Below, in pieces: positions 17,025-31,375 of a stretch of 34,329 nucleotides of DNA; the stretch's first letter is position 1, and every line of letters starts with the position of its first letter. The stretch lies in assembly GCA_905478975.1 (NCBI GenBank), contig CAJQKW010000109.1, forward strand, positions 1 to 34,329. The letters are read 5' to 3'. Origin of the DNA: an uncultured Pseudomonadales bacterium. Lineage in GTDB: Bacteria > Pseudomonadota > Gammaproteobacteria > Pseudomonadales > Porticoccaceae. Under the pieces are notes generated by a model. That model was not told the DNA's origin, did no database searches, and saw only the letters and a program-made list of their open reading frames with translations. Position numbers and translations under genes: made by a program.

Positions 17025-18539
17025 CTAACGGCTTTCTCTCAGAACAATCAATTGCTCATGAAGCTCCGTTACAAGTGATTCATAACCTTTATGTTCAGCC
17101 AGATTAACGCTCTCACTGGGGTCATTTAGGTGATCAAAAAGCATTCGCGCCGTCACCTGGCCGCGTTGATCAAACCACTCTGTCATGGCATAACGATCGG
17201 TTTTAATCACATCTGCGGCGTGCCAGCGTGGAAACACCGCTGCTTTGCCTGGGGCGCTGCTATCGAGTAGCTGGCTAACGAAGCTATCTCCCTGCAACTG
17301 CGGAAGCATGGGCTTGCCCAACAGCTCGAGTACGGTGGGGAATATATCGACAAATTCGACCAAACCCTCGGCAACACCGACCCCCGGGTTCAAGATTGGT
17401 GTAGGCTCATCTCTTTTAGAGAGAGTGCTTTTAGAGAGGGTGCTTTCAGATAGAGTGCTTCCCAGCAGCCGCCCCATAGTCGATGTCTCGGTCAAGGCTG
17501 TTGGCAACTTAACAATTAGAGGCGTTCTTGTGGCCACATCAAAAGGCGAGTGTTTGACCCATAAACCATGCTCACCGAGACTAAAGCCGTGGTCTCCCGC
17601 GACTATAACAATGGTGTTGTCGTCGAGATTGAGCTGTTCTAATTTGGCTAGCAGTTTACCCACCTGAGCGTCCGAGTAACTGACGCTGGCAAGATAACCA
17701 TGAACCAGTTTCTTCGCCATAGCATCAGGTACCGGATGCGGTGCCTTGGGGATACCGTCAAATTTGCGCAACTCACCCCAGCTGTGGATGGCCTGGCGGG
17801 GTGCTCCCATCGGCATAAGTGGATTGCTGGCAAGGTTGATATCCGCTTCGTTATAAAGATCCCAGTAGCGGAGAGGCACAGTAAAAGGCAGATGAGGCTT
17901 TAAAAAGCCCACCGCCATAAAGAAAGGCTGATCGCGCTCACTGGCGGATTCAAGAGATGCTAAGGCCTGATCGGCAATCATGCCATCAAAGTAATGATTA
18001 TCCGGCACATCCGCGGCTTCATAGGCAGGGCCAACACGATTCTTTAGAAAGCTGGCAATGTTTTCCGCGCTCTGGTAATTGCGGTGCCCTATGCGCTTAA
18101 TCTTGCCCGTCGGATTCCAGGGTGGCGTGCTCCAGTCCGCCTTAGAATCCTCGGAAAAATGCAATATCTTGCCGATACTTTCGCTGTAGTAACCCTGCTT
18201 TTTGAGGTAACCAAACAGCGTTTCAGCCCCTTTGGCATCCTCATCAATACGCGCTTGATAACCGACGAAGCGTTTCTCCGTCGGTCTGATACCCGACATC
18301 ATACTCGCTCTCGACGCACCGCAGACCGGCACGTTGACATAGGCATTGGCAAACAGCACAGCCTCGCTGGCCAGGCTATCTATGTTCGGCGATTTAACCG
18401 CTGTGCTGCCGTAAGCACCCAGTTCGGGGCGCAGATCATCAATCATGATAAACAGCACATTGGCCGGCTTGGGGTCACTGGCAATAGCGTTGCACGCCAG
18501 TGACAGGCCACATACAACGGTTAAAAACAGATTCTTCAT
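17025..18539 (-). CDS. exported type I sulfatase, iduronate-2-sulfatase-like
   Basis: About 504 residues. A Sec signal peptide (MKNLFLTVV...LACNAIA) suggests the periplasm. The sulfatase fold begins with NVLFIMIDDLRPELGAYG (metal-binding Asp pair). The formylglycine signature is C73-G-A-S-R with a following MMSG, and the second metal site lies in GDHGFSLGEHGLW. The pattern is that of iduronate-2-sulfatase-like (SulfAtlas S1_7-type) enzymes, but the true substrate is unknown. ATG 18539 has GAAAGG seven bases upstream; the GTG at 18554 overlaps that site. A short in-frame repeat (STLSK/STLSE) sits in a loop before the C-terminal region. It is last in the minus-strand polysaccharide run. Confidence 0.92.
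   Translation of the reverse strand: MKNLFLTVVCGLSLACNAIASDPKPANVLFIMIDDLRPELGAYGSTAVKSPNIDSLASEAVLFANAYVNVPVCGASRASMMSGIRPTEKRFVGYQARIDEDAKGAETLFGYLKKQGYYSESIGKILHFSEDSKADWSTPPWNPTGKIKRIGHRNYQSAENIASFLKNRVGPAYEAADVPDNHYFDGMIADQALASLESASERDQPFFMAVGFLKPHLPFTVPLRYWDLYNEADINLASNPLMPMGAPRQAIHSWGELRKFDGIPKAPHPVPDAMAKKLVHGYLASVSYSDAQVGKLLAKLEQLNLDDNTIVIVAGDHGFSLGEHGLWVKHSPFDVATRTPLIVKLPTALTETSTMGRLLGSTLSESTLSKSTLSKRDEPTPILNPGVGVAEGLVEFVDIFPTVLELLGKPMLPQLQGDSFVSQLLDSSAPGKAAVFPRWHAADVIKTDRYAMTEWFDQRGQVTARMLFDHLNDPSESVNLAEHKGYESLVTELHEQLIVLRESR
17413..17457 (-). repeat. in-frame 15-nt tandem repeat in the sulfatase gene
   Basis: Three 15-nt units (17413-17427, 17428-17442, 17443-17457) that differ by one to three bases and encode STLSK/STLSE pentapeptides. 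They lie in a likely surface loop of the sulfatase. Confidence 0.8.
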
Positions 18540-18573
18540 AGAGCGGCCTTTCACTATCGAATTTAATGGTTTG

Positions 18574-20238
18574 TTAGTGCGCTGCAGGTTTGCCCTTAGA
18601 TAGCCCTGCCCTAACCCTATCCGGTTTCATAAAGTAGCGCAGATCCTGCTCGCTACCATCCCGTAACCATTGCCTTGGGAACTCAGCCGCTTTTGATCGT
18701 TCGCCTTCACGGAACACTGCACCATGACTAAACTTCTCAGTGTATGGGACACTTAAGCCATCGCGAGAATCCCCTAGACGAGCAAATAGCTTGCTGCGCA
18801 GATCGGCGACTACGGCCAGAGAGTCTGGATCGTGAATCAGGTTGTGCATCTCTTTAGGATCAGTACGCATATCATAGAGTTCTTCGGTATCCCAAAGACC
18901 GTGATAGGTAATAAATTTATAGTCGTCTGTCCGCAGCGCAAAGGTGGTGGGTGTGCTCGGATAATTAAACTCCCAGTAGTATTCATAGAGAAGATCATCG
19001 CGCCACTGGCTTTCTGATTCGCCTCGCGCCAGAGAATACAGGCTTTCTCCTTCAAATTGCTCGGGCGATTCGACCCCAGCAATATCCAGTATGGTCGGCG
19101 CAATATCGATATTGGCGGCAATCTCTTTAACCACATGATTAGTCTTCAAGCCATTACCCCAGGCTAAAAGCGGTACCCGCATGGATTCCTCGTAGGCATT
19201 GCGCTTATCGATTAGACCGTGCTCACCAAACATAAAGCCATTGTCACCCATCAGCATGACAATCGTGTCGTCGGCATGGCCATTGTCTTCGAGCCACTGG
19301 AACAGACGGCCGAGGCTCTCGTCCACAGCAGAGAGTGCTCGGTGGTAGCGCATCTTGTAGGCCTGAACATCCAGCGAGCTGTGATAGGGAAAGTCAACGC
19401 CGTGCCAGCTATTGCGCTGATTCTTTACCCACATCGGCTTACCCTCATAATTTTCAGGGGTATCAGCTTGGCTCTCAGGCACCGGAATAGTTCTGTCGGC
19501 ATACTGCTCCGTGTGACGTTGAGCCGGGGCAAAATTGGCATGTACCGCCTTGTGAGAAAGGTACATAAAGAACGGTTCTTCGCTATCGCGACTGTCCAGC
19601 CAATCCACGGCGTAATCGGTCAACTCATCAGTGATATAACCTTTTTGTTTAACCGGATCACCGTTGACATTGAGCATGCTCTGCTCGCCATTGGGTTTGG
19701 TGGGATAGTAGTGGCCCTGACCGGCAAAGCTAACCCAGTGATCAAATCCTGGTTGTGGATCATCAAGCTTACGTCCCGCTGGCGCCAATTCACCCATGTG
19801 CCACTTGCCGACAAAGGCGGTGTTGTAGCCGGCCTTTTGCAAGTACTCGGGAAAGAAAATAGTGCCTTCGCGGGGTGGCTTATTATTATCGACCACGCCG
19901 TGGTTGTGCATATACTGGCCGGTGAGGATCGAAGCGCGACTCGGAGAGCAGAGAGCCGTGGTGACAAAGGCATTCTCAAAATGCACACCCTCGGCGGCCA
20001 TACGATCCATATTCGGCGTGTCTATAACGGGATTCATAAAACCCAGTTCATCGTAGCGCTGATCGTCGGTGAGAACATAGATAACGTTCTTTGGCTTGTT
20101 GACCGGTTGAGCACTTTCTAGAACCGCACTTTGCCCGCCACCCTCTGTGTCATTACAACCAACCAGTGCCGAAATCAATATTGTTACAGCAGCCTTGCCT
20201 ATGAGGCTATTTGACCAATCGCGTTTAAAACCATTCAT
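18574..20238 (-). CDS. sulfatase lipoprotein (arylsulfatase / N-acetylglucosamine-6-sulfatase-like)
   Basis: 554-residue type I sulfatase. The N-terminus has a hydrophobic segment ending in the lipobox LVGC (Cys28), so it is probably membrane-anchored. NVIYVLTDDQRYDELGF carries the first metal ligands; the formylglycine motif is C97-S-P-S-R followed by ASILTG; the second metal site is MGDNGFMFGEHGLIDKRNAYEESMRVP. This last pattern is common in N-acetylglucosamine-6-sulfatase-like enzymes (S1_11 type), but that does not fix the substrate. ATG 20238 has AAGGAT eight bases upstream. It is 34 bp from the preceding sulfatase gene and 57 bp from the GH3 gene, consistent with one transcript. Confidence 0.93.
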   Translation of the reverse strand: MNGFKRDWSNSLIGKAAVTILISALVGCNDTEGGGQSAVLESAQPVNKPKNVIYVLTDDQRYDELGFMNPVIDTPNMDRMAAEGVHFENAFVTTALCSPSRASILTGQYMHNHGVVDNNKPPREGTIFFPEYLQKAGYNTAFVGKWHMGELAPAGRKLDDPQPGFDHWVSFAGQGHYYPTKPNGEQSMLNVNGDPVKQKGYITDELTDYAVDWLDSRDSEEPFFMYLSHKAVHANFAPAQRHTEQYADRTIPVPESQADTPENYEGKPMWVKNQRNSWHGVDFPYHSSLDVQAYKMRYHRALSAVDESLGRLFQWLEDNGHADDTIVMLMGDNGFMFGEHGLIDKRNAYEESMRVPLLAWGNGLKTNHVVKEIAANIDIAPTILDIAGVESPEQFEGESLYSLARGESESQWRDDLLYEYYWEFNYPSTPTTFALRTDDYKFITYHGLWDTEELYDMRTDPKEMHNLIHDPDSLAVVADLRSKLFARLGDSRDGLSVPYTEKFSHGAVFREGERSKAAEFPRQWLRDGSEQDLRYFMKPDRVRAGLSKGKPAAH

Positions 20239-20295
20239 GTATAAATCCTTAAATACTCTTATTGAATTTTTTTGTTTTTGTTTTTATTCTTGGCA

Positions 20296-22611
20296 TTAGT
20301 CTTTAACGCGCAGCTGAATACTTTTTAGATCAGCTCCACGAGACGACGAACCCACCATCAAGGTGAAGGCTCCGGGCTCGACTACCCACTCCATAGCACG
20401 GTTGTAATAGGCCAGCATCTCAGGCTCTACGGTAAAGCTAACGCGCTTTGACTCGCCCGCCAGTAGATAGATCTTTTCAAACCCCTTGAGCTCCTTTACC
20501 GGCCGGGTTATTTCGCTGTAATTGTCACGGACATAAAACTGTACCGTTTCATAACCCGCGCGATCGCCACTGTTAGTAACGGTCACCGATAGTTTGGTGC
20601 TCTCGGTTTTTTCAATGCTTTTGTTATCCAGAACTGGCTGAGAAAAAGCAAATTCGGTATAGCTAAGACCGTAACCAAACTCAAATAGATTGCGGGTCGG
20701 CGCATCGGCATATTTATGCTTGTAAGCCGAGGGTTTGTGGTTATAGATCGCCTGAGTGTGGCCGATGCTATAGGGCACAGTGATGGGCAATTTACCGCTG
20801 GGATTAGTCACCCCATAGATGATTTCTGCCAGTGCCTGTCCGCCCATTGCACCGGGCTCCCAGGCTTCAATAACAGCAGCACTGTTATCCACGACCCAGG
20901 GTTCAGCGATCGGTCGGCCATTAACCAAGACCACAATCACCGGTGTTCCAGTTGCGTGAATGGCCTGTACCAACTCAAGCTGTCGGCCGATAAGATTGAT
21001 CGACGAGCGGGCAACATTTTCCCCGGAGGTCTTGCCTTTTTTGTCGTAGCGCAGGGGGTTTTCACCGACTACCACAACCGCGACCTGAGACTGGCTCGCG
21101 CGCTTGGCGGCACCGAGAATATCCTCTGTAGAAAGATTTTTAACCTGTTTGCCAACATCGTAAAAATCAATATCTTTAGGACTGGCGGCAACTGCTCTTA
21201 GTCCTTCGAGTACGGTTGTGACATTGTTTTCTGGCTGTTGCAGCACCCAGTCCCCAAGAATCGTATGGTTGTCAGCATTGGGGCCGGTAACAAAGACTTT
21301 AGTGTTTTTTTGCAACGGTAGAATACTGGCGTTATTGGTTAGCAGTACGATTGCCTGACTCGCCATGTCCAGTGCCGTTTGCTGGTGGGCTGCGGTAAAT
21401 ACCGACTGTGCAACCAGGCTTTCATCGACGTAGGGATTTTCAAATAATCCGAGACGAAATTTGGCTAGCAGCATTGGGCCCACAGATGCATCTATGCGCT
21501 CCTCGGAGAGTCGACCTTCATTGACCAGTTCCACGAGAGGCTCAAGAAAGTCAGGCCCGTGCATATGCATATCCATTCCCGCATGCACGGTTTGGAAGAC
21601 CGCCTCCTTTTGACTGGTGGCAACTCGATGAAAGGTATGCAAGCGTTCGATGTCCATCCAATCACTGACCACAAAGCCTTTAAAGCCCCACTCCTCACGC
21701 AACACATCATTGAGCAGATAACGACTGCCATGGGCGGGTTCACCATTGATCTCATTGTGCGCAGCCATAAAGGTAAACACGCCGGCATCGACTGCTCGCT
21801 TAAAGGGTGGGAAGAAATCCTGGCGCAGACTGCGCTCGGAGACATCCATGGGTGACAGATTAATACCATTGATCGGATCACCACCGGCAACCCAGTGTTT
21901 GGCGTTGGCAATGACCTTCTGTGGCCCATCGAAGTCCCCCTGCTGGAGGCCCTCTATTGTTGCCACACCCATTTCAGCGACGAGGAAGGGATCTTCGCCA
22001 AAGGTTTCACCGACTCGACCCCAGCGCGGATCACGGGCTATATCCACATTCGGTGTAAAGCTCCAGTGAGAGCCTGTGGCGCGCATCTCACGCGCGGTTT
22101 CGACACTTGCCTGTTTAACGAGTCCAAGGTTCCATGAACTAGCCATGCCCAGAGGCGCAGGATAGACCGTGGAACCACTGACCATGGCGTTGCCGTGGAT
22201 CGCATCTATACCAATTAGCAAAGGGATACCCAAACGGCTCTGTGCCGCGTGGCGCTGTAATAAGTTAGCCTCAGTAGCGGTCAATACATGAAGGAATGAA
22301 CCGACTTTGCCGGTCTCGATAAACGCTGGAATCTGCGACGAGTGAAGATCGGGATAGAAACCATGGGCGTCACTCTTGGCGAGGTCATCAATGGACATGT
22401 GCTGCTCTGATTCAGCAGTGTGATCAATACCTACGTACTGACACATCTGCCCCACCTTCTCCTCCAGGGTCATCCGTGGCAATAGATCGGCCACCCGCTG
22501 CTCAGCGGTTAGGCTGGCGTCTAGGTAGGCGGGCAAAAGTTCACTGCTGATCGAGGTTAAGGACGCAGTAGAAATCAGTAAACCGGTAAAGCTAAGTAAT
22601 AATTTTTTCAT
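20296..22611 (-). CDS. GH3 family beta-glycosidase (beta-glucosidase/beta-xylosidase)
   Basis: 771-residue secreted glycoside hydrolase of family 3 with a Sec signal peptide (first ~22 residues). The TIM-barrel domain contains the conserved KHWVAGG (238-244) and nucleophile D317 in GFVVSDWMDIERL. A C-terminal alpha/beta sandwich follows (GENPLRYDKKGKTSGE), then an FnIII-like domain from about residue 660 (SVTVTNSGDRAGYETVQFYVRD). The layout is that of BglX. Clustered with a GH10 enzyme it could be a beta-xylosidase, but GH3 specificity cannot be read from these motifs. No clear ribosome site precedes ATG 22611. Confidence 0.94.
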   Translation of the reverse strand: MKKLLLSFTGLLISTASLTSISSELLPAYLDASLTAEQRVADLLPRMTLEEKVGQMCQYVGIDHTAESEQHMSIDDLAKSDAHGFYPDLHSSQIPAFIETGKVGSFLHVLTATEANLLQRHAAQSRLGIPLLIGIDAIHGNAMVSGSTVYPAPLGMASSWNLGLVKQASVETAREMRATGSHWSFTPNVDIARDPRWGRVGETFGEDPFLVAEMGVATIEGLQQGDFDGPQKVIANAKHWVAGGDPINGINLSPMDVSERSLRQDFFPPFKRAVDAGVFTFMAAHNEINGEPAHGSRYLLNDVLREEWGFKGFVVSDWMDIERLHTFHRVATSQKEAVFQTVHAGMDMHMHGPDFLEPLVELVNEGRLSEERIDASVGPMLLAKFRLGLFENPYVDESLVAQSVFTAAHQQTALDMASQAIVLLTNNASILPLQKNTKVFVTGPNADNHTILGDWVLQQPENNVTTVLEGLRAVAASPKDIDFYDVGKQVKNLSTEDILGAAKRASQSQVAVVVVGENPLRYDKKGKTSGENVARSSINLIGRQLELVQAIHATGTPVIVVLVNGRPIAEPWVVDNSAAVIEAWEPGAMGGQALAEIIYGVTNPSGKLPITVPYSIGHTQAIYNHKPSAYKHKYADAPTRNLFEFGYGLSYTEFAFSQPVLDNKSIEKTESTKLSVTVTNSGDRAGYETVQFYVRDNYSEITRPVKELKGFEKIYLLAGESKRVSFTVEPEMLAYYNRAMEWVVEPGAFTLMVGSSSRGADLKSIQLRVKD

Positions 22612-22670
22612 GATCGGTGTAAAAGGCCCTATTGTTTAATGGATATAATTAACGTTGTTTGTAATTAACG

Positions 22671-22730
22671 GTTTGTTACCCGACTGTTTGTTACGGGATA
22701 GTTTGTTACGGGATAGCTTGCTACTAAATA
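22671..22730. repeat. four 15-nt tandem repeats after the GH10 stop codon
   Basis: Units GTTTGTTACCCGACT, GTTTGTTACGGGATA (twice, identical) and GCTTGCTACTAAATA, directly downstream of the GH10 gene on the minus strand (its stop is at 22739-22741). The unit length is a multiple of three although it lies outside the gene. No stem with a U tract was found in the 127-bp gap. Confidence 0.88.
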
Positions 22731-22738
22731 GCTGTTTT

Positions 22739-24040
22739 TCATGTCAGATTAATCTGGGCACGCACAGTGTTTGCTTTCAATGGCACTGCAAAGGTACCGC
22801 CGTTAGCCGCGCTCACCTGCATATGGTAGAGCCCCTTATAGCCGGTAAAATTAACCTCTCCTCGACTATCGGTGATTAATTCAACCTCGGTAGACCAGCG
22901 TTTATTGACTAGGTCATGCCACACCTGGCCATTAGGTTTCAATCGCAAGTTGCGATCAACCAGTGCTGCATCGGGCTTTGGTACGCTGTTTTTAGCGTAC
23001 TCAAAGGGCGTCCAGGTAAGCAGTCCGGTCATCTGCGGATGACTGAAGACAGCGGTCATAAAGTCTTCGCTATAACGTGCCTGAAACTCTAAATCCGGAG
23101 TTTCAAAATCAAACTCGGTAACCTGTAACTCGGTATTTAGCGTGGCGAAATCATTCATAATAGAGAGCAACTCTTGCGGCGCTGTAGGCGCAAACCCCTT
23201 GGGGATATGTGCTTGAAATCCAATCCCTTGAATAGCCGCGCCCTGCTTCAAAAGGCCCTGTATATAATTAAAATAAAAGGTTCTGTGACGCACTGAATTC
23301 TTAGTTAGCACTCCGTAGTCGTTGATATAGCGTTTAACCTCGGGCCGAATCTGCTGCACCTGTTTGAACCAATCGACAGCGACCTCGGGACCGAGAATAT
23401 CCATAAACTCATGACTACTAAAAGGCTCGTTGAGCACATCCCATTCAGTTAGGGGATGGCCATATTGGCTGACCATTTTGTCGATATGGTCATTGAGTAG
23501 CTTGCGTAACTGCACTTTATTGCCCGAATATCTGGCATGTTCTGCTGCAGCTCGTCTGAAACCGGGCCAGATTAAACAGTGCCCTCGAACCGGGATACTG
23601 CGCTCTGCACACCAATTCATAAAAGGTTGGATGTACTGGAGATTGTTGTCATGGTGCTTCCACTTAAACGCATTCTCAGGGGTCAGTTTGTGGAACAGTA
23701 AATCGCAGTAATCTAAATGACGCTGTCTTATCTCCTGAGGATATGGGCTGCCATAGAGGCGCCTTAAGCGCGGTGCCGCACCAAAACCAAAATCATGGCG
23801 ATAGAGATTTGCTTTAACCGGCAGATTTGCCAGGGGCATGCCCGCAGCGTCTGTTACCCTGACATTAAAGCGGCCTTTGCGAAGCACTTCGATGCGCTGC
23901 TTAGCGTCTTTTCGCCAACCGGCACTGTCTTCCATACCGGCATAAGAACTGGCTGCAATAGAAAGGTTTTCAGCCTGTTTTGCGAACCCGAAAGACGGAA
24001 CGGCCGCTGCCACAGAAGATATAAAGCGTCGCCTGTTCAA
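22739..24040 (-). CDS. GH10 family endo-beta-1,4-xylanase-like enzyme, Tat-exported
   Basis: 433 residues. The N-terminus MNRRRFISS is a twin-arginine signal. A short beta domain ending in YRHDFGFGAA precedes the GH10 barrel; this N-terminal 'HDF-FG' strand is seen in a plant/environmental-type branch of GH10. ENAFKWKHH and RGHCLIWPG match conserved GH10 positions, the acid/base is E205 in VLNEPFSSHE, and the nucleophile is E309 in LQVTEFDFE. A small beta domain closes the protein. The start is TTG at 24040, with GGGTGG about ten bases upstream; no ATG keeps the Tat motif N-terminal. It would cut xylan-like backbones in the periplasm, feeding the GH3 enzyme. Exact substrate unknown. Confidence 0.9.
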   Translation of the reverse strand: MNRRRFISSVAAAVPSFGFAKQAENLSIAASSYAGMEDSAGWRKDAKQRIEVLRKGRFNVRVTDAAGMPLANLPVKANLYRHDFGFGAAPRLRRLYGSPYPQEIRQRHLDYCDLLFHKLTPENAFKWKHHDNNLQYIQPFMNWCAERSIPVRGHCLIWPGFRRAAAEHARYSGNKVQLRKLLNDHIDKMVSQYGHPLTEWDVLNEPFSSHEFMDILGPEVAVDWFKQVQQIRPEVKRYINDYGVLTKNSVRHRTFYFNYIQGLLKQGAAIQGIGFQAHIPKGFAPTAPQELLSIMNDFATLNTELQVTEFDFETPDLEFQARYSEDFMTAVFSHPQMTGLLTWTPFEYAKNSVPKPDAALVDRNLRLKPNGQVWHDLVNKRWSTEVELITDSRGEVNFTGYKGLYHMQVSAANGGTFAVPLKANTVRAQINLT

Positions 24041-24117
24041 AATCCAATTACCACCCGTATTCAGTTAAAGTAAAAGCAGCTCTAAAGTGACCCTATCTGC
24101 ATGTTTGAAGGCTATAA

Positions 24118-24144
24118 CCCTCCCAGCGAGAACCGCCAGGAGGG
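24118..24144 (-). terminator. hairpin after the TonB-dependent receptor gene
   Basis: On the minus strand CCCTCC...GGAGGG with further inner pairs (10 bp, 7-nt loop), 15 bp past the receptor stop. It has no T tract after it, so it may stabilise or attenuate the mRNA between receptor and GH10 rather than end it. Confidence 0.45.
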
Positions 24145-24158
24145 CAATAGTCGGAGCT

Positions 24159-26912
24159 CTAGAACTTGTAACGGAGGCCCAGTGCATAACGCCGGCCAAA
24201 TTCACGATAGGAAATAATCCGTGATTCGTCGCCAGCAAAAGTGACTGGCTTTTCGTTGGTCAGATTAATCGCCTCTGCGGTCAACGTGAGGCCGGTATCA
24301 CCCACCTGATAACTCATGCTGGCATCAACCTGAGAATAGGCTTTGTGATAGATTGGCAGACCACCCAGGCTTGAGGTGAAGAGTAAGAAATCATCACGTT
24401 CGGTGTAGGAGATACGACCGGAAAAGTCCTCTTTTTCATAGAACAGCACCAGATTCATACTTGATTCCGAGAGTCCTTCCAATGGCAGTTCGTTGCCAAA
24501 TGGATCATCTCTACCTGTAGAGCTATCAATCATGGTGTAGTTAAAGATCGTACCCAAACCATTAAAGGGAGCCGGCAGCTCAGTGAAATTCTGCTGATAA
24601 GAGAACTCAAGACCCTGAATAGTAGCGCCTTCACCGTTAGACGGTGCCGTGACCAAATACTCTACCGCATCACCGTTGTCGTCTGTTTCAAACCCGGGAA
24701 CAACTTCGCTGAACTGAGTTGATGAAACGTAGGAGCTGACGTCTTTGTAAAATGCAGCGGTCGAGAGTAAACCACCCTTATTAAAATACCATTCCAGAGA
24801 CAGATCGAACTGATCGGCGAGAAACGGATTAAGGTCCGGATTACCACGAGTGGCTGTCTGTGCGCCCTGATTGACGTTATAGCCTAGGGTCAATTGCTGA
24901 AAGCTAGGACGAGACATCACTTTGGCATAACCACCACGCAGCAAGAGATCATCCTGAAGTACATAGACAATATTCATACTCGGCAATATTTCAGAATAGC
25001 TGCGTTTGTCGTTGAGTGGAATCAAGGCAGCGCCATCGTAGGTATTACTGTTACCTTCCTGATCGGTACTGACGTAGCGCAGACCAAAATTGCCGCGCAG
25101 CTTATCAGTGGCGAAGGTCGCCATGGCATAGACTGCAGTAATTTCTTCGCTAACATCCCAGTTACTAATACCGTCCTGCTTGGCTCGAATCACTGGGGTC
25201 CCTAATTGGCCGTCAGCATCGTAGGAATAATCTTCCAGAATCATGCTTGCCGATGGAAGGAACCAAGATGAAGGCATGCCGCCAGTAACGGAAAAGTCAT
25301 CGACTGGAAAAGTACTGTCGCCAATATAATCTGCCAAGGTACAGCTGTGAGCATCATCGCCACAGGTCGAGCCGCCTCTAGAGTTAACCGAATCGACAGC
25401 TTTGTATTGCTGCTTAGTACGATCACGGTATTTAGCGCCGAACTTTACGCTGGTGATCCAGCTATCATTAATCGTGCGTTCGAAATCTAACTGGGCGTAC
25501 TCTTCTTCGTCAGTGTTTTGTAGCACTGCGCGCGACAGATTCTGCCACACCAGGTCGGAGGGTGCAGACACCGCCTCACCGCCAGCCAAGGTCGCAGCCA
25601 GAGTGGAGAATTGAACACCGCGAGTATCATAGGAAACACTGCTTCCCTTTGGCCCAAAGGTGGCAAATAAAGCTGGATCCTGTTTGCCCTCACCATCGGA
25701 AGCGCCAACGCGTGCCGACACCAACCAATCTTCAGAGGTCCAATCTACAGAGAGATTGACGGCTTCGGTCGAATAGTTATATTCGCGATCAAAGGCAGCG
25801 ACAAAATAGCGCTGATGAAATGATTTGTTACTGGTGCTGTTAGTCACTGCGACAAAATTATCGCCGTCGAGAACGGCACTCTCAATCAGCGTATTGCCGA
25901 CACCACCTGGGGCATCAGTAAATCGATAAGCGCTGTTGCTGGCGTGCTCAAAACGGGTTAAGTCAGTGGTCAAATAATCTAACTTAACGTCGATGTTATC
26001 ATTCGGTCGATATTGAAAAACAACATTGAGACCGGAGCGCTCACGCTCTTCAAGGCGAATATTTTGACGTATATCCTTGGGCATATAACCGTAGTCAATA
26101 CCATCAACCGGTGCAGTTAACTTCGCTGGAGAACCTGCATCGCTAATCGTACCTGTAGCGGCGTTAAAACCCACATAGCGATAGCCAAAGGATTCGACAC
26201 TGTCACGACGGAAAGGCTCTTCGGAATTGTTGTAACTGACCAGGACACCTAATTCGCGGCCCTGAGAGTCAGTCTCAGAATCGGTGTATAAAAACGAATA
26301 GTTTTCACCTTCATCGTCCCGCAACTTGTTAAACGATTGCTTGAGATTGACTACCGCAGTGCGGTTTTTGAAATCCAATGGCGAACGCGTCTTGAGGTTA
26401 ACCGTTCCGCCCAGAGAACCTTCATCCTGGCTGGCCGAGGGTGTCTTAAACACTTCAAGGCTCTCCACTAGCTCTGGCGAGATGGTGTTGTAGTTAAAGC
26501 TTCGTGAACCACCGGATACAGAGGTGGTTGAAATAGTTTGGCCGTTTACTGTGGCGCGATTCAATGCCGGTGGCGTACCACGGACACTGACCTCACTGCC
26601 CTCTCCTACACCGTCGTTGTCGCCGGCACTAACGTTAGTACCGCGGCTAATTTGCACGCCGGTAACACGCTGTAGTGACTCGGCGACATTGTGATCGGGG
26701 AACTTGCCCAGATCTTCTGATGTTATGACCTCAACAAACTCATTTGAGTTGCGTTTGCGGTCAATTGATTTCTCAAGACTGGCGCGAACACCAGTCACAA
26801 CAACTTCTTCTATCCCAGCGTCCTGAGCCATGGACTGATGAGAAAATCCAGACGTGGCTATCACTACACATAGCAGCCTTAGTTTAAAAGACCCATTGGT
26901 TAAATTCGACAT
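24159..26912 (-). CDS. TonB-dependent outer-membrane receptor, Xanthomonas/Caulobacter carbohydrate type
   Basis: 917-residue outer-membrane beta-barrel transporter. Signal peptide ends near SMA-Q (residue 29). A plug domain follows, from IEEVVVTGVRASLEKSIDRK through SEDLGKFPDHNVAESLQRV and TGVQISRG, typical of the TIGR01782-like TonB receptors found next to glycan-degradation genes. The barrel runs to the end and closes with the terminal aromatic residue (GLRYKF). It should import oligosaccharides released from a polysaccharide, using energy from TonB/ExbBD. There is no SusD partner, as expected outside Bacteroidetes. ATG 26912 has GGGGA upstream. The 173-bp region before it holds a palindrome (27044-27061) that may be a regulator site. 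Confidence 0.95.
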   Translation of the reverse strand: MSNLTNGSFKLRLLCVVIATSGFSHQSMAQDAGIEEVVVTGVRASLEKSIDRKRNSNEFVEVITSEDLGKFPDHNVAESLQRVTGVQISRGTNVSAGDNDGVGEGSEVSVRGTPPALNRATVNGQTISTTSVSGGSRSFNYNTISPELVESLEVFKTPSASQDEGSLGGTVNLKTRSPLDFKNRTAVVNLKQSFNKLRDDEGENYSFLYTDSETDSQGRELGVLVSYNNSEEPFRRDSVESFGYRYVGFNAATGTISDAGSPAKLTAPVDGIDYGYMPKDIRQNIRLEERERSGLNVVFQYRPNDNIDVKLDYLTTDLTRFEHASNSAYRFTDAPGGVGNTLIESAVLDGDNFVAVTNSTSNKSFHQRYFVAAFDREYNYSTEAVNLSVDWTSEDWLVSARVGASDGEGKQDPALFATFGPKGSSVSYDTRGVQFSTLAATLAGGEAVSAPSDLVWQNLSRAVLQNTDEEEYAQLDFERTINDSWITSVKFGAKYRDRTKQQYKAVDSVNSRGGSTCGDDAHSCTLADYIGDSTFPVDDFSVTGGMPSSWFLPSASMILEDYSYDADGQLGTPVIRAKQDGISNWDVSEEITAVYAMATFATDKLRGNFGLRYVSTDQEGNSNTYDGAALIPLNDKRSYSEILPSMNIVYVLQDDLLLRGGYAKVMSRPSFQQLTLGYNVNQGAQTATRGNPDLNPFLADQFDLSLEWYFNKGGLLSTAAFYKDVSSYVSSTQFSEVVPGFETDDNGDAVEYLVTAPSNGEGATIQGLEFSYQQNFTELPAPFNGLGTIFNYTMIDSSTGRDDPFGNELPLEGLSESSMNLVLFYEKEDFSGRISYTERDDFLLFTSSLGGLPIYHKAYSQVDASMSYQVGDTGLTLTAEAINLTNEKPVTFAGDESRIISYREFGRRYALGLRYKF

Positions 26913-27043
26913 TGCAAAATCCCCGTGATTACTTTATTTGTGTTTTTAATTATTACTACTTCGACGCGTCATAGTTGCACTTTCGCCTATCTTGAATAAT
27001 CAGGAATTGCTTAAATGCAGCGTCAGGAAATGGGGATTTTTAA

Positions 27044-27061
27044 TGTAGGGTTTTTCCTACA
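27044..27061. promoter_or_regulatory. inverted repeat upstream of the TonB receptor
   Basis: TGTAGG-GTTTTT-CCTACA, perfect 6-bp arms, about 132 bp before the receptor start and 25 bp after the response regulator stop. It could be a binding site for the NarL-type regulator, or a small 3' hairpin of the regulator gene. No T tract follows on the minus strand, which argues against a terminator. Confidence 0.4.
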
Positions 27062-27085
27062 GGGCATAGAAAGGAGTCAGAATTG

Positions 27086-27730
27086 TTACAAAAGTAAACC
27101 CGACTTATTGGCATATAGAGTCAGCTCTGCATTGTTTGAAAATCCCATTTTCAGCATTAATCTTGATCTATGAGTGGCGATAGTCTTGGCACTCACCTGT
27201 AATTTCTCGGCAATATCTTTTGCCCTTTTACCTGAAGCCAATTCGAGAAAAATTTGATATTCCCGGTCTGAAAGTGACTCATAGAGAGAAAAATCATCTT
27301 CACTAGAAAAGCTCCGACTCATGCTGTTAGCTAAAAGTCCGCCCACAATTTCGTTGATATAGCGTCCACCTGCAGCAGCAGTTTTTACTGCCTTTACAAT
27401 TTCTGATTCTTCCGAGTCTTTTGATATATAGCCTGCTGCGCCAGCCTGAATCAATCTAATAGCGTATTGAGATTCAGGATAACTACTCAGAATCAGCACC
27501 GGTAGATGAGGCTTTTCTGACTTAATTTGTTTTAGTACATCGACACCACTGCGGCCGGGCAGACGGATATCCAGTACGACCAAGTTCCAGTCTTGACTTC
27601 TAACCTGATGTATCGCTTCGATTGCGTCATTGGCCTCACCGAATACCACCAAGCCCAGATGTTCAACAAGCATCTGTTTTAACCCATTTCTAACTACAGC
27701 ATGATCGTCAACAAGAAGAATGGATGACAT
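27086..27730 (-). CDS. NarL/LuxR-family response regulator
   Basis: 214-residue cytoplasmic two-component regulator. The receiver has the acidic pair D8-D9, phospho-acceptor D54 (VVLDIRLPG) and the conserved Thr/Ser and Lys positions (LILSSYPESQ, GYISKDS). The C-terminal LuxR-type helix-turn-helix reads LSDREYQIFLELASG, then AKDIAEKLQVSAKTIATHRS. ATG 27730 has AGGAT upstream. It is transcribed away from the histidine kinase gene at 27952, and toward the TonB receptor, so it probably works with that kinase and controls the polysaccharide genes. Confidence 0.95.
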   Translation of the reverse strand: MSSILLVDDHAVVRNGLKQMLVEHLGLVVFGEANDAIEAIHQVRSQDWNLVVLDIRLPGRSGVDVLKQIKSEKPHLPVLILSSYPESQYAIRLIQAGAAGYISKDSEESEIVKAVKTAAAGGRYINEIVGGLLANSMSRSFSSEDDFSLYESLSDREYQIFLELASGKRAKDIAEKLQVSAKTIATHRSRLMLKMGFSNNAELTLYANKSGLLL

Positions 27731-27951
27731 AACTTATCCTATGTAAAGGAGATTAATGATTTTATTTTGTCGCAAAGTAACAGATACTTGCCAAATCAGG
27801 AACCAGAAATGGTTGGTTTTATAAAAATATCTGACTAAAGTTTTCAACACCACATAAGTAACTTGTTATTTATTTCGGCTTGTAAGCTTTATGCAAACGC
27901 GATTTATAAGCCCAGTAAAGGGCATCAAGCCATAGAACCAAAGGGTCACTA
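27731..27951. promoter_or_regulatory. divergent promoter region between regulator and kinase genes
   Basis: 221 bp, AT-rich, between the start codons of the response regulator and the histidine kinase. It must hold promoters for both. I find no convincing -35/-10 pair and no copy of the TGTAGG palindrome. Confidence 0.5.
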
Positions 27952-29667
27952 ATGTCGGCACCGCTCCATCTTATCCTTGCATGCCTCACCGCCTGCACTG
28001 CCCTGTTTTTAACTGTGACTATGGCCAGTGCAGACATTCAGGTAGAGCAAGTTGGCAATGCCGACAAGCTAGTACTGCTATCATCACTCACCGAGCCAGA
28101 GCGTAACTGGCTGCGCAAACACCGAACCATCAGGCACGGTATCGTCAGCAACCAAATGCCTTTCGAATACGTGGACAGTAGCGGCCAGTATCGCGGGTTG
28201 ACCTCAGACTATATCGCCATTATCAGTGAACAGCTGGGCATTAATTTTGAGCCATCTTTCTTCTCCGATCTAACCACCCTATCAAACGGAGTTCGAGAAA
28301 AGCGCATAGACCTAGCCAGCTATCTGCCGCCGCCCCGAGGACAACTAAGCTACAGCGAAACGGTTATAGAAATGCCAATCGCCCTCTTTGGCCGACAAGA
28401 TTCCGCGCTAATCGTTGGCATTGAGTCGATTCGCGATGAACGTGTAGTCATTGAAAAGCCTTCCAAAGCACAGCAAATACTCTCTCAATACTATCCTCAG
28501 ATTACGGTTAGCTATGTGGATACGCCCGCCGAGGGTATTCAAGCAGTGCTCGCAGGAAAAGCTGATATATTCATTCACAATGTCTTTTCAGTCGAATACT
28601 ACACTCGTAAGCTGGGGTTGCCGCCGTTAAAAACGGTGTCTAACACCCCTTATACTTTTGATATTGCATTTGCGGTAACCGAGGAACTCAGGCCCTTTAT
28701 CCCGATCTTCCAAAAGGTGATCTCAGGCCTAAGCAAACGGGAAAGACAGCTAATTTTCGATAAGTGGGTCAATATTGAAATAACCCGCAAACTCGACCTC
28801 AAAAAAATAGGACTCTGGGCCGGTGGCGCCCTACTGTTTGTTCTACTGGTATTTCTGTCCATTCTGCGCTGGAACAAAATACTTCAGGAGAGAGTTGCCT
28901 ACAGAACCCAAGAGCTTGAGTTGTCTAGTAAAAACTTGCGCAGCCTTGCCCGTCATATGGATCAGGTACGAGAGGAGGAAAAGGCAAAGTTAGCCCGTGA
29001 AATTCATGATGAGCTCGGCCACACTCTGATTTCTCTGACCATGGCTGTGAGGCGATTGAAGAGTATAGCCTCGAAAAACTTTGATACGCCTGAGGCAAAC
29101 AGCCCTCAAATCCAGAGTTCGCAAATCAAGAACTCGCAAATAAAAAGTACTGAGCTAAATAAGCAATTTGATGAAATTAAGGCCTTACTACTGCAGGCGT
29201 CAAGTACCTCCAGGTCCATCATGTCTGACCTGCGACCCAGTGTTTTAGAGGATTTGGGATTGACTGCAGCCATAGAGTGGCTGGCCCATGAATTTGAAAT
29301 CCATCATCAAACTCTGTGTGTTGTTCGCGGCACCCAGCCCCCTGAGACCCTTTCACCCGCCATTGCTATCGCGGTATTTCGGATCGTTCAAGAGTCACTG
29401 ACCAATATCGCCAAACATGCCATCGCCAAGAAGGTTCAGATTAAGCTCAGCAGTGACAATGGGCTTCTTAAAGTAGAGATTATTGACGACGGCGTTGGCC
29501 TGCAGAGCGGCTGGAAAAATAAAGAAGGCTCATTTGGCTTCCAGGGTATGCGCGAGAGAGCAATGAGTTTCAACGGCGAAATCAGCGTCGCCAATGGCAA
29601 AAAGTCCGGGGTGGTCTTAAGACTCCAAATCCCCTATCAAACATCAGACGTCGACACTAAACAGTAA
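27952..29667 (+). CDS. histidine kinase with periplasmic SBP_bac_3 (Venus-flytrap) sensor
   Basis: 571-residue membrane sensor. Signal peptide or TM at about 8-27; a periplasmic type II solute-binding domain at about 45-275 (LTEPERNWLRKH, IRHGIVSNQMPFEYVDSSGQ, BvgS/EvgS-like); one TM at about 280-302; a HisKA_3 domain with phospho-His352 in AREIHDELGHTLISL; and an HATPase_c domain with VQESLTNIAKHA and IDDGVGL. HisKA_3 kinases pair with NarL-type regulators, and one is divergent next door. Unlike BvgS there is no PAS, receiver or HPt module and only one sensor domain. A 15-nt in-frame repeat lies in the DHp helical hairpin loop. ATG follows AAGGG. Ligand unknown; a glycan product or an amino-acid-like solute is possible. 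Confidence 0.92.
   Translation: MSAPLHLILACLTACTALFLTVTMASADIQVEQVGNADKLVLLSSLTEPERNWLRKHRTIRHGIVSNQMPFEYVDSSGQYRGLTSDYIAIISEQLGINFEPSFFSDLTTLSNGVREKRIDLASYLPPPRGQLSYSETVIEMPIALFGRQDSALIVGIESIRDERVVIEKPSKAQQILSQYYPQITVSYVDTPAEGIQAVLAGKADIFIHNVFSVEYYTRKLGLPPLKTVSNTPYTFDIAFAVTEELRPFIPIFQKVISGLSKRERQLIFDKWVNIEITRKLDLKKIGLWAGGALLFVLLVFLSILRWNKILQERVAYRTQELELSSKNLRSLARHMDQVREEEKAKLAREIHDELGHTLISLTMAVRRLKSIASKNFDTPEANSPQIQSSQIKNSQIKSTELNKQFDEIKALLLQASSTSRSIMSDLRPSVLEDLGLTAAIEWLAHEFEIHHQTLCVVRGTQPPETLSPAIAIAVFRIVQESLTNIAKHAIAKKVQIKLSSDNGLLKVEIIDDGVGLQSGWKNKEGSFGFQGMRERAMSFNGEISVANGKKSGVVLRLQIPYQTSDVDTKQ
29104..29163 (+). repeat. in-frame 15-nt tandem repeat in the kinase DHp loop
   Basis: Pentapeptides PQIQS, SQIKN, SQIKS and a fourth diverged TELNK, coded by 15-nt units. 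They sit between the two helices of the HisKA_3 dimerisation domain, where a length change would alter the hairpin loop and not the active His. Confidence 0.8.
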
Positions 29668-29743
29668 ATTAGTACGGACGAAAACTCTTTTCCGTGCCAG
29701 ACCATTTAAAGGGGACATAAATCATTCATCAAGGGATCTCTAG

Positions 29744-31375
29744 ATGCGTATAAGATTAAACATGGCGATTCTTTGCCTAGCGCTTGTGCCACTAACGGCC
29801 AGCGCACTTGCTCAGCAGCGACCGAATATTTTATTAATTATGGCCGAGGATATGAGCGCTAGAGTCGGTGCATTTGGTGATAGTGTCGCTGTCACACCCA
29901 ATCTCGATCGTCTCGCCAGCACCAGTGTTCGCTATCCTAATACATTTACCACTGCTGGCGTTTGCGCGCCGAGTCGCGCCGCGCATATACTCGCGGTACA
30001 CCAGATGTCAGTGGGTGGACAGCACATGCGCACCCGCTCTTTTAAGGAGTCCGCCTACCGCTCGGTCCCGCCAGCACATATCAAAGCCTATCCAGAATTG
30101 TTGCGTCGCCAAGGCTATTACACCTTTACCAGTTCCAAGCTCGACTATCAGTTCAGCAATACATCTGCCGGTTCAGGGCCTTTTAGTATCTGGGACTACG
30201 AGGGCCCGCAATCTACCTGGCAGGGTCGTGCAGAAGGTCAGCCGTTTTTTGGTTTCGTGACACTTAACCAGAGCCATGAGCGGCAGATGTTTCCTGACGT
30301 GGTGGCGGCAAACAATGCCACAGGTACTAGATCTCAGGTAGTCAATCCCGATCAGGTTCTGGTGCCGCCCTACTACCCCGACCATGCCGCTATCCGCGCT
30401 GATATTGCGCAGCATTACAACAATATTTTCACCATGGATCAGATGGTGGGCAAGTTGCTCCGCCAACTTGAGGAAGACGGCTTGGCTGATAATACGATTG
30501 TTATCTGGACTACCGACCATGGCGATGGCCTGCCCCGAGGCAAGCGGGAAATTTATGACAGTGGCATCAAGGTGCCATTAATTGTGCACTGGCCCGCGGA
30601 CCTTAAGCCTGCAATGTTGAATCCCGACAGTATTGATAAAAAGCTGGTTAGCTTTGTCGATATAGGGCCCAGTGTTTTGACCATAGCGGGGATCCCGGTG
30701 CCTGACTACATGCATGGCAGTGCTCAGCTAGTTCCGGGTGCCAGTCCCAAAAGAGACTATATCTATGCCGCCAAAGACCGGCTAGACGGCTTTAACTTTC
30801 GTGAGCGCGCAGTGCGCGATGGTCAGTTTAAATACATTGCGAACCTGCTCCCAGGCCTCCCAGGTGCCACGCACATTACTTACCGCGATCAACTGGCCAC
30901 CATGCAAACTCTCTGGCAACAGTTCGGTGCAGATAAGCTAAATGCAGCGCAACGCTTGTGGTTTGAGCCGCGCCCAGCAGAAGAGCTCTACGATATAGTT
31001 GCCGACCCCCATGAGATCAATAACCTCATAAACTCTGTCGAACAGGCAGCGACTCTGGCGCGAATGAGGAGTGCATTAACCGACTGGCGGGTCGCGATTG
31101 TCGACTACAGTGAGACAGCAGAATTACAGATGGCTAAGGATTTTTGGCCCAATGGAAAGCAGCCAGTCACTCAAGCACCTGAGATCTCAATTGATAACCT
31201 GGGCACCGCAAGCATAGCGCCTGCGGCAGTCGATGATTCAGTTGGATATAGGGTCAATGGCGGCGCATGGAAGCTCTACAGCAAACCTCTGTCACTGCCC
31301 AAAAGCGCTATCGTAGAGGCTAAATCGGTTCGCTATGGATGGGCAGAGAGCCAACTGACCCGTGCATCTCTTTAA
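29744..31375 (+). CDS. exported type I sulfatase with variant signature and C-terminal beta domain
   Basis: 543 residues with a Sec signal peptide (cleavage near ALA-Q). The fold starts with PNILLIMAEDMSARVGAFGD. The formylglycine motif is C74-A-P-S-R78, but the usual trailing T/L-G is L83-A84 (AAHILAVHQ); the following GGQHMRT stretch resembles heparan-N-sulfatase-like (S1_8-type) proteins. The second metal site is TTDHGDGLPRGKREIYDSG. From about residue 475 there is a small domain ending in VGYRVNGGAWKLY and SVRYGWAES, like the chitobiase/hexosaminidase C-terminal domain found in some sulfatases. ATG follows AAGGGATC. It is 76 bp after the kinase gene, so possibly co-transcribed. Confidence 0.92.
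   Translation: MRIRLNMAILCLALVPLTASALAQQRPNILLIMAEDMSARVGAFGDSVAVTPNLDRLASTSVRYPNTFTTAGVCAPSRAAHILAVHQMSVGGQHMRTRSFKESAYRSVPPAHIKAYPELLRRQGYYTFTSSKLDYQFSNTSAGSGPFSIWDYEGPQSTWQGRAEGQPFFGFVTLNQSHERQMFPDVVAANNATGTRSQVVNPDQVLVPPYYPDHAAIRADIAQHYNNIFTMDQMVGKLLRQLEEDGLADNTIVIWTTDHGDGLPRGKREIYDSGIKVPLIVHWPADLKPAMLNPDSIDKKLVSFVDIGPSVLTIAGIPVPDYMHGSAQLVPGASPKRDYIYAAKDRLDGFNFRERAVRDGQFKYIANLLPGLPGATHITYRDQLATMQTLWQQFGADKLNAAQRLWFEPRPAEELYDIVADPHEINNLINSVEQAATLARMRSALTDWRVAIVDYSETAELQMAKDFWPNGKQPVTQAPEISIDNLGTASIAPAAVDDSVGYRVNGGAWKLYSKPLSLPKSAIVEAKSVRYGWAESQLTRASL

Follow-up and report, generated by a model that had tools for sequence, protein, structure and literature searches.

A SusD-less TonB-receptor gene cluster with GH10, GH3 and three sulfatases in SAR92-clade Porticoccaceae, predicted to serve the utilization of a sulfated xylose-rich glycan

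Gene content of the locus

We analyzed a window of 34,329 nucleotides (NCBI GenBank assembly GCA_905478975.1, contig CAJQKW010000109.1, positions 1-34,329 of the forward strand), in which positions 17025-31375 hold a cluster of eight genes encoding a TonB-dependent receptor, glycoside hydrolases (GH) of the families GH10 and GH3, three sulfatases, a sensor histidine kinase, and a response regulator. We propose that this region is very probably a SusD-less, TonB-receptor polysaccharide utilization locus (PUL) of the SAR92 clade for a sulfated β-xylan or a closely related sulfated xylose-rich glycan. The window genome is a metagenome-assembled genome (MAG) of a SAR92-clade member of the Porticoccaceae (2.24 Mb, 79.9% complete), whose closest named relatives are BACL16 and the isolates H921 and HTCC2207 (GH10 identity of 90-92%).

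Genes were called from the listing of open reading frames (ORFs) and from Pfam and NCBIfam scans of the window proteins, all of which bear out the eight genes at the coordinates given in the initial annotation of the window (Table 1). Six genes, from the response regulator to sulfatase A, are located on the minus strand, and the kinase and sulfatase C, on the plus strand, diverge from the regulator. The co-location of a TonB receptor with carbohydrate-active enzymes (CAZymes) makes the cluster PUL-like; a Pfam scan of 20 window proteins revealed no SusD domain. The window genome contains a single GH10 match, eight matches to the sulfatase family PF00884, and one match to a sulfatase activator of the formylglycine-generating enzyme (FGE) type.

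Table 1. Genes of the cluster, with window coordinates, strand, and supporting domain matches or motifs.
Gene product	Coordinates	Strand	Evidence
Sulfatase A, S1 family	17025..18554	-	PF00884 147 bits; C78 in CGASR
Sulfatase B, S1 family	18574..20238	-	PF00884 221 bits; C97 in CSPSR
GH3 exo-glycosidase, predicted β-xylosidase	20296..22611	-	PF00933/PF01915/PF14310
Divergent GH10, predicted endo-β-xylanase	22739..24040	-	PF00331 131 bits; E205 and E309
TonB-dependent outer-membrane receptor, Xanthomonas/Caulobacter type	24159..26912	-	TIGR01782 703 bits (cut-off 310)
LuxR/NarL-type response regulator	27086..27730	-	PF00072 and PF00196
Sensor histidine kinase (SBP_bac_3, HisKA_3)	27952..29667	+	PF00497, PF07730 and PF02518
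Sulfatase C, S1 family	29744..31375	+	PF00884 133 bits; C74 in CAPSR

Conservation of the cluster in the Porticoccaceae

The eight genes occur in identical order in all three relatives from the window's genus in which a contig spans the site, namely HTCC2207 (G012), BACL16 (G014), and H921 (G038), thus the cluster is not a chance neighbourhood; a lack of conserved synteny, which the initial annotation had listed among the outcomes that would speak against its proposal, is not what these genomes show. The HTCC2207 proteins are 86-96% identical to those of the window, and both clusters are bordered by Tex-FolD at one end and by ECH-GDPD at the opposite end. In G044, where the cluster is split by contig ends, GH10 and the receptor share one short contig, sulfatase A lies on another, and sulfatase C was not matched.

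A search for FolD in 50 genomes of the genus gave a match in 40, and 30 match sites were examined with the surrounding locus. FolD directly adjoins ECH in 15 of them, leaving the site empty, and sulfatase A adjoins FolD in four (the window genome, HTCC2207, G044, and, at 56% identity, G053). The FolD/ECH site is also empty in BACL16 and H921, in which the cluster is located elsewhere. G053 (L154 4712-14769) has a short version at the same site, composed of sulfatase A, GH3, an MFS_2 transporter, an AraR/NrtR-like NUDIX regulator, and sulfatase C; it lacks GH10. Overall, sulfatase C is present in 7 of the 50 genus genomes.

A family-wide search for GH10 (E<=1e-30) gave matches in 13 of 112 genomes. 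Six of these are at least 52% identical to the window GH10, five from the window's genus (the window genome included) and one from the SAR92 genome AG-916-D20 (G002); the other seven are remote. The remote GH10 proteins, 32-33% identical, are encoded by Porticoccaceae genomes of another genus (L021-L027, L035 4974-6335), and their short flanks contain no homologues of the window cluster genes; at six named remote-GH10 loci (L071, L073, L075, L077, L078, L079) the available flank has no A/B/C-like sulfatase.

AG-916-D20, which belongs to a different genus from the window's, carries a related cluster between FolD and a GDPD, matching the window's site. Its first strand encodes sulfatase A, sulfatase B, GH3, GH10, and an aldose epimerase (mutarotase), followed on the other strand by xylB, xylA, two sulfatases, an unknown protein, sulfatase C (56% identical), and a second GH10, then by a first-strand TonB receptor, an MFS_2 sugar transporter, and a GH43 with a β-xylosidase C-domain. 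Both the xylulokinase (TIGR01312, 520 bits) and the xylose isomerase (TIGR02630, 664 bits) score over their cut-offs, and the second GH10 is canonical (325 bits). This linkage to xylose genes is the strongest evidence on the substrate. Within the AG-916-D20 cluster, a 419-aa protein (L034 3802-5058) has no Pfam match at E<=0.001.

Sulfatases

All three sulfatases contain the maturation motif C-x-[PA]-x-R (at C78, C97, and C74), which together with PF00884 and the FGE gene in the genome identifies them as S1 formylglycine sulfatases. The earlier view that they represent three distinct types holds, since sulfatases A and B share about 25% identity (by tblastn of B against the locus of A) and the nearest relatives in PDB differ among A, B, and C; the S1_7 and S1_8 labels used below rest on these nearest solved sequences. 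The best PDB match of sulfatase A is 6HHM (253 bits), followed by the iduronate-2-sulfatase 5FQL/6IOZ. The former is P18_S1_7, described as an endo-2-sulfo-D-xylose sulfatase, and the same source describes P32_S1_8 as an exo-2-sulfo-D-xylose sulfatase and has a galactose-directed S1_7 enzyme in its table as well (PMC9096561). From its nearest solved relative, sulfatase A is predicted to be an S1_7-like 2-O-sulfohydrolase. Sulfatase B, the N-terminus of which has a lipoprotein-like signal as judged by eye, is most similar to 7P24 and 5G2V, with 7LHA ranking sixth. The best matches of sulfatase C are 9BB9/9BBD/9BBA, S1_8 sulfatases of the λ-carrageenan cascade. S1_8 is described as a 2-O-sulfohydrolase subfamily (PMC12549532) with activities on galactose-2S (PMC12549532) and xylose-2S (PMC9096561), and sulfatase C is a putative S1_8-like exo 2-O-sulfohydrolase by its nearest solved relatives. 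In H921, an FGE-type activator gene (PF03781, 240 bits) adjoins sulfatase A, and BACL16 has, at the matching place, a protein whose start is similar (H921/BACL16 sites at L028 3173-4135 and L030 16841-17806).

GH10 and GH3 enzymes

The nearest solved relatives of the window GH10 are the XynA structures 7D88/7D89. In the alignment, E205 and E309 face both alanines of 7D89, a double mutant (E182A/E280A), hence the catalytic pair is intact. A structure model built from 17 sequences has a mean pLDDT of 90.9, and its closest solved folds are GH10 xylanases. With the GH10 fold and both catalytic glutamates present, the protein is predicted to be an endo-β-xylanase; its N-terminus looks twin-arginine-like (NRRRF, by eye). 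For GH3, the best PDB match is the β-xylosidase 7ZB3 (479 bits) and the best NCBIfam model is an exo-β-1,3/1,6-glucosidase, which scores 576 bits, under its cut-off of 1330; a β-xylosidase function is predicted.

A second sulfatase-rich locus in the window genome (G000:C105; L011 3569-20000, L012 1-2533) contains four sulfatase-family matches, a sulfatase 69% identical to sulfatase B, and a GH3 65% identical to that of the cluster. It also encodes a TonB receptor, an Lcl_C/Big_2 protein, an MFS transporter, a LacI regulator, and a right-handed β-helix protein with a weak likeness to the lacto-N-biosidase 6KQS (E 2e-13).

GH10 loci beyond the SAR92 clade

A scan of genome contigs revealed 62 related GH10 loci, at least 12 of which have one or more A/B/C-like sulfatases in the available flank, a lower bound given the many short contigs. 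Among the seven loci with at least 40% GH10 identity, six have two or more sulfatases, and the remaining one sits on a 4.4-kb contig that breaks off inside GH10. For instance, a Kiritimatiellales locus encodes a 40% identical GH10 and four sulfatases, and the GH10 locus of Pelagicoccus mobilis has two sulfatases. In two Flammeovirga genomes (L084 8417-11176, L089 8411-11170; domains scanned in L084), a 920-aa protein combines a SulfA-type S1 sulfatase with GH10 in one chain, and its gene adjoins susC, susD, and a GH3 gene whose product is 53-54% identical to that of the window.

The GH10 tree was built from 68 matches, leaving out four short or weak ones (L092_0, L096_2, L096_7, L097_4) and keeping three weak rows by hand (L095_6, L034_4, L096_9). 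Sulfatase linkage requires nine changes on this tree vs 12.9 in shuffles, and 2 of 500 shuffles were as low, with near-copies favouring a low count; the tree shows clustering of the linkage, not a single origin. A tryptophan conserved in many GH10 relatives is missing from 11 of 12 sulfatase-linked rows and also from 18 of 49 others, a count that additionally omits L095_6, L034_4, L096_9, and the truncated L040_1. In a test of phylogenetic pairs, a tie between the loss of this residue and sulfatase linkage was not significant (three independent pairs, starred branches, median p 1).

Predicted pathway and substrate

A sulfated xylose-containing glycan, as suggested by the initial annotation, is the best reading of the locus because of the linkage with xylA, xylB, and GH43 in AG-916-D20, the xylose-2-sulfatases among the sulfatase relatives, and the sulfatase-GH10 fusion in Flammeovirga; habitat and literature suggest an algal origin of the glycan. 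In the pathway that we would propose, the glycan, or oligomers of it, would enter through the TonB receptor. The following steps would presumably take place in the periplasm, to judge from signal sequences assessed by eye: sulfatase A would take 2-O-sulfate off within the chains, GH10 would cleave the β-xylan backbone, sulfatase C, and possibly B, would strip sulfate from the chain ends, and GH3 would liberate the monosaccharide. The kinase and the response regulator may turn the locus on in the presence of the oligosaccharide, its presumed inducer. This order of steps and the 2-O position of the sulfate are likewise tentative.

Several observations weigh against this assignment. The solved structures close to sulfatase B include the 6-O-sulfatases 5G2V (by title) and 7LHA, and xylose has no O-6; galactose-directed members are also known within both S1_7 and S1_8. 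The window GH10 is remote from its solved relatives (24% identical to the closest structure) and lacks the tryptophan conserved in many GH10 relatives. Since the GH10 tree needs nine gains or losses, the linkage of GH10 with sulfatases is not one ancient event. AG-916-D20 does not possess the same locus gene for gene, given that its TonB receptor shares just 28% identity with that of the window and that the stretch examined showed no homologues of the kinase and regulator. Finally, the standard xylose route is not visible in the genus genomes searched: xylose isomerase (TIGR02630) was found in none of five, and XylB over cut-off in none of four, genomes of the window's genus, where the window MAG is incomplete and HTCC2207, BACL16, and H921 are 98-99% complete. 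Either the genus uses an unrecognised xylose route, or its main product is something other than xylose.

Other candidate genes for sugar uptake and catabolism were considered. A search of the genus genomes for an ILVD-type dehydratase that would complete the route was negative; NCBIfam typing, which covered the window genome, identified its two ILVD/EDD proteins as IlvD and Edd and not as xylonate dehydratase. One of the two FGGY kinases below the XylB cut-off (G000:C50, with a counterpart in HTCC2207) has a neighbourhood that, by gene starts, does not look xylose-specific. H921 and BACL16 encode a XylE-like porter (481 bits, cut-off 608) next to the cluster. Such a porter occurs in 17 of the 50 genus genomes, is absent from the window genome, and lies away from the cluster in HTCC2207, thus it was given little weight as support for the substrate. 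The H921 cluster is further accompanied (L099 5257-9085, L030 27-1640) by an SDR protein best matched by the D-xylose 1-dehydrogenase model (274 bits, under its cut-off of 400), an enolase-superfamily protein with all models under cut-off, a DGOK kinase, and a KDPG-type aldolase, which perhaps constitute an oxidative sugar route; the window genome and HTCC2207 have flanks other than these SDR/enolase/DGOK genes.

The missing xylA and over-cut-off xylB would also fit a sulfated β-glucan, a xyloglucan-like, or a mixed glycan that releases mainly glucose, as would the glucosidase model of GH3 (under its cut-off) and the position of the XylE-like porter of HTCC2207, amid genes that, by eye, resemble those for a GH3 and a TonB receptor. 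We regard such a substrate as unlikely in view of the xylA, xylB, GH43, and second GH10 in the AG-916-D20 version and of the xylose-2-sulfatases among the sulfatase relatives. Those same relatives would also fit ulvan, or another rhamnose- and uronate-rich sulfated glycan, in which xylose-2-sulfate is just one residue: the closest solved relative of sulfatase A and one S1_8 enzyme stem from an ulvan locus. However, the window cluster proteins contain no lyase or rhamnosidase domain (lyases were not sought genome-wide), and GH88/GH105 (PF07470) is found in none of the six genomes with the cluster or its relative, making this substrate very unlikely.

A sulfated galactan such as carrageenan appears highly improbable: although the best solved relative of sulfatase C is a galactose-2-sulfatase of the λ-carrageenan cascade, and DGOK and the KDPG-type aldolase adjoin the H921 cluster, the glycoside hydrolase domains of the window cluster are limited to GH3 and GH10, and no DGOK flank is seen in the window genome or HTCC2207 (BACL16 was not domain-scanned on that side). 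There is hardly any room for the view that the sulfatases are sulfate scavengers placed by chance beside an ordinary xylan locus, a role that the initial annotation had named as a possible refutation. The genome does have other sulfatases among its eight PF00884 matches, and G043, G050, and G053 carry sulfatase C and are not among the 13 GH10-matched genomes, but the operon-like layout, the conserved gene order, the sulfatase-GH10 fusion, and nearest relatives acting on sugar sulfates all speak for a role in glycan utilization.

Within the favoured assignment to a sulfated xylan, a further and rather doubtful possibility is that GH10 enzymes of this remote clade are adapted to cut xylan that is still 2-O-sulfated, i.e., would act as endo-sulfoxylanases together with an S1_7-type endo-sulfatase, and that in the SAR92 genus the xylose then enters a route without XylA and XylB. 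The tryptophan pattern is only a hint in this direction, because the residue is also absent from 18 of 49 unlinked rows.

Comparison with known systems

Our reconstruction would assign the use of sulfated xylan to the SAR92 clade, whose abundant members respond to algal blooms, including the isolates HTCC2207 and H921. The papers compared here infer this phytoplankton glycan from gene lists; the sulfatase families predict that it has 2-O-sulfated xylose in a β-xylan, and the compact enzyme set could act as a probe for it. HTCC2207 is stated to be a confirmed degrader of xylan and laminarin, with reference to Xue et al. 2021 (PMC10746254), and its single GH10 match is located in the eight-gene cluster. 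Our literature search, which covered part of the relevant papers, found no description of this cluster in SAR92. A study that covers 22 North Sea SAR92 species (PMC8371827) reports xylan clusters lacking sulfatases in three Alteromonadaceae species and a xylan cluster with sulfatases in one UBA7434 species, in a passage that does not name SAR92. The UBA7434 cluster resembles the window's in being gammaproteobacterial and TonB-receptor-type, with xylan enzymes (GH10/GH11/GH43) and sulfatases, but comes from a different clade.

The ulvan PUL of Formosa agariphila (PMC9096561, PMC8511951) has S1_7 (P18_S1_7) and S1_8 (P32_S1_8) sulfatases, which the predicted S1_7-like sulfatase A and S1_8-like sulfatase C resemble, and shares GH3 with the window cluster, whereas the window cluster has no lyase or GH78 domain and GH105/GH88 is absent from all six genomes. 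The xylan locus of Polaribacter BC5_Pol (PMC6383258) is similar in its GH10, sulfatase, and TonB receptor, and has xylA and xylB like AG-916-D20; it differs in possessing SusD and further GH families, and the window has no xylA or xylB.

The initial annotation had hinted that no described system has such a gene set, which is contradicted by the recurrent 'sulfated xylan' PUL reported in marine Bacteroidetes (Formosa, Aurantivirga, Polaribacter), composed of a sulfatase-domain GH10, GH3, and two more sulfatases (PMC6794258); PUL136 of Formosa Hel3_A1_48 has also been described (PMC6298971). As far as that account of the Bacteroidetes pattern goes, the window cluster shares with it GH10, GH3, three sulfatase domains, and the marine habitat. 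However, the window GH10 is a separate protein and not fused to a sulfatase, unlike the GH10 of Flammeovirga, a TIGR01782-type receptor without SusD is found in place of SusC/SusD, and the SBP_bac_3 kinase and LuxR-type regulator are a further difference. The cluster thus appears to work like the Bacteroidetes sulfated-xylan pattern and yet is not a member of it, because the fusion and the SusC/SusD features are missing; by its predicted gene products, it is classed as a gammaproteobacterial TonB-receptor CAZyme cluster. A closely similar enzyme combination is already known in marine Bacteroidetes, and the locus is a solid but largely ordinary case.

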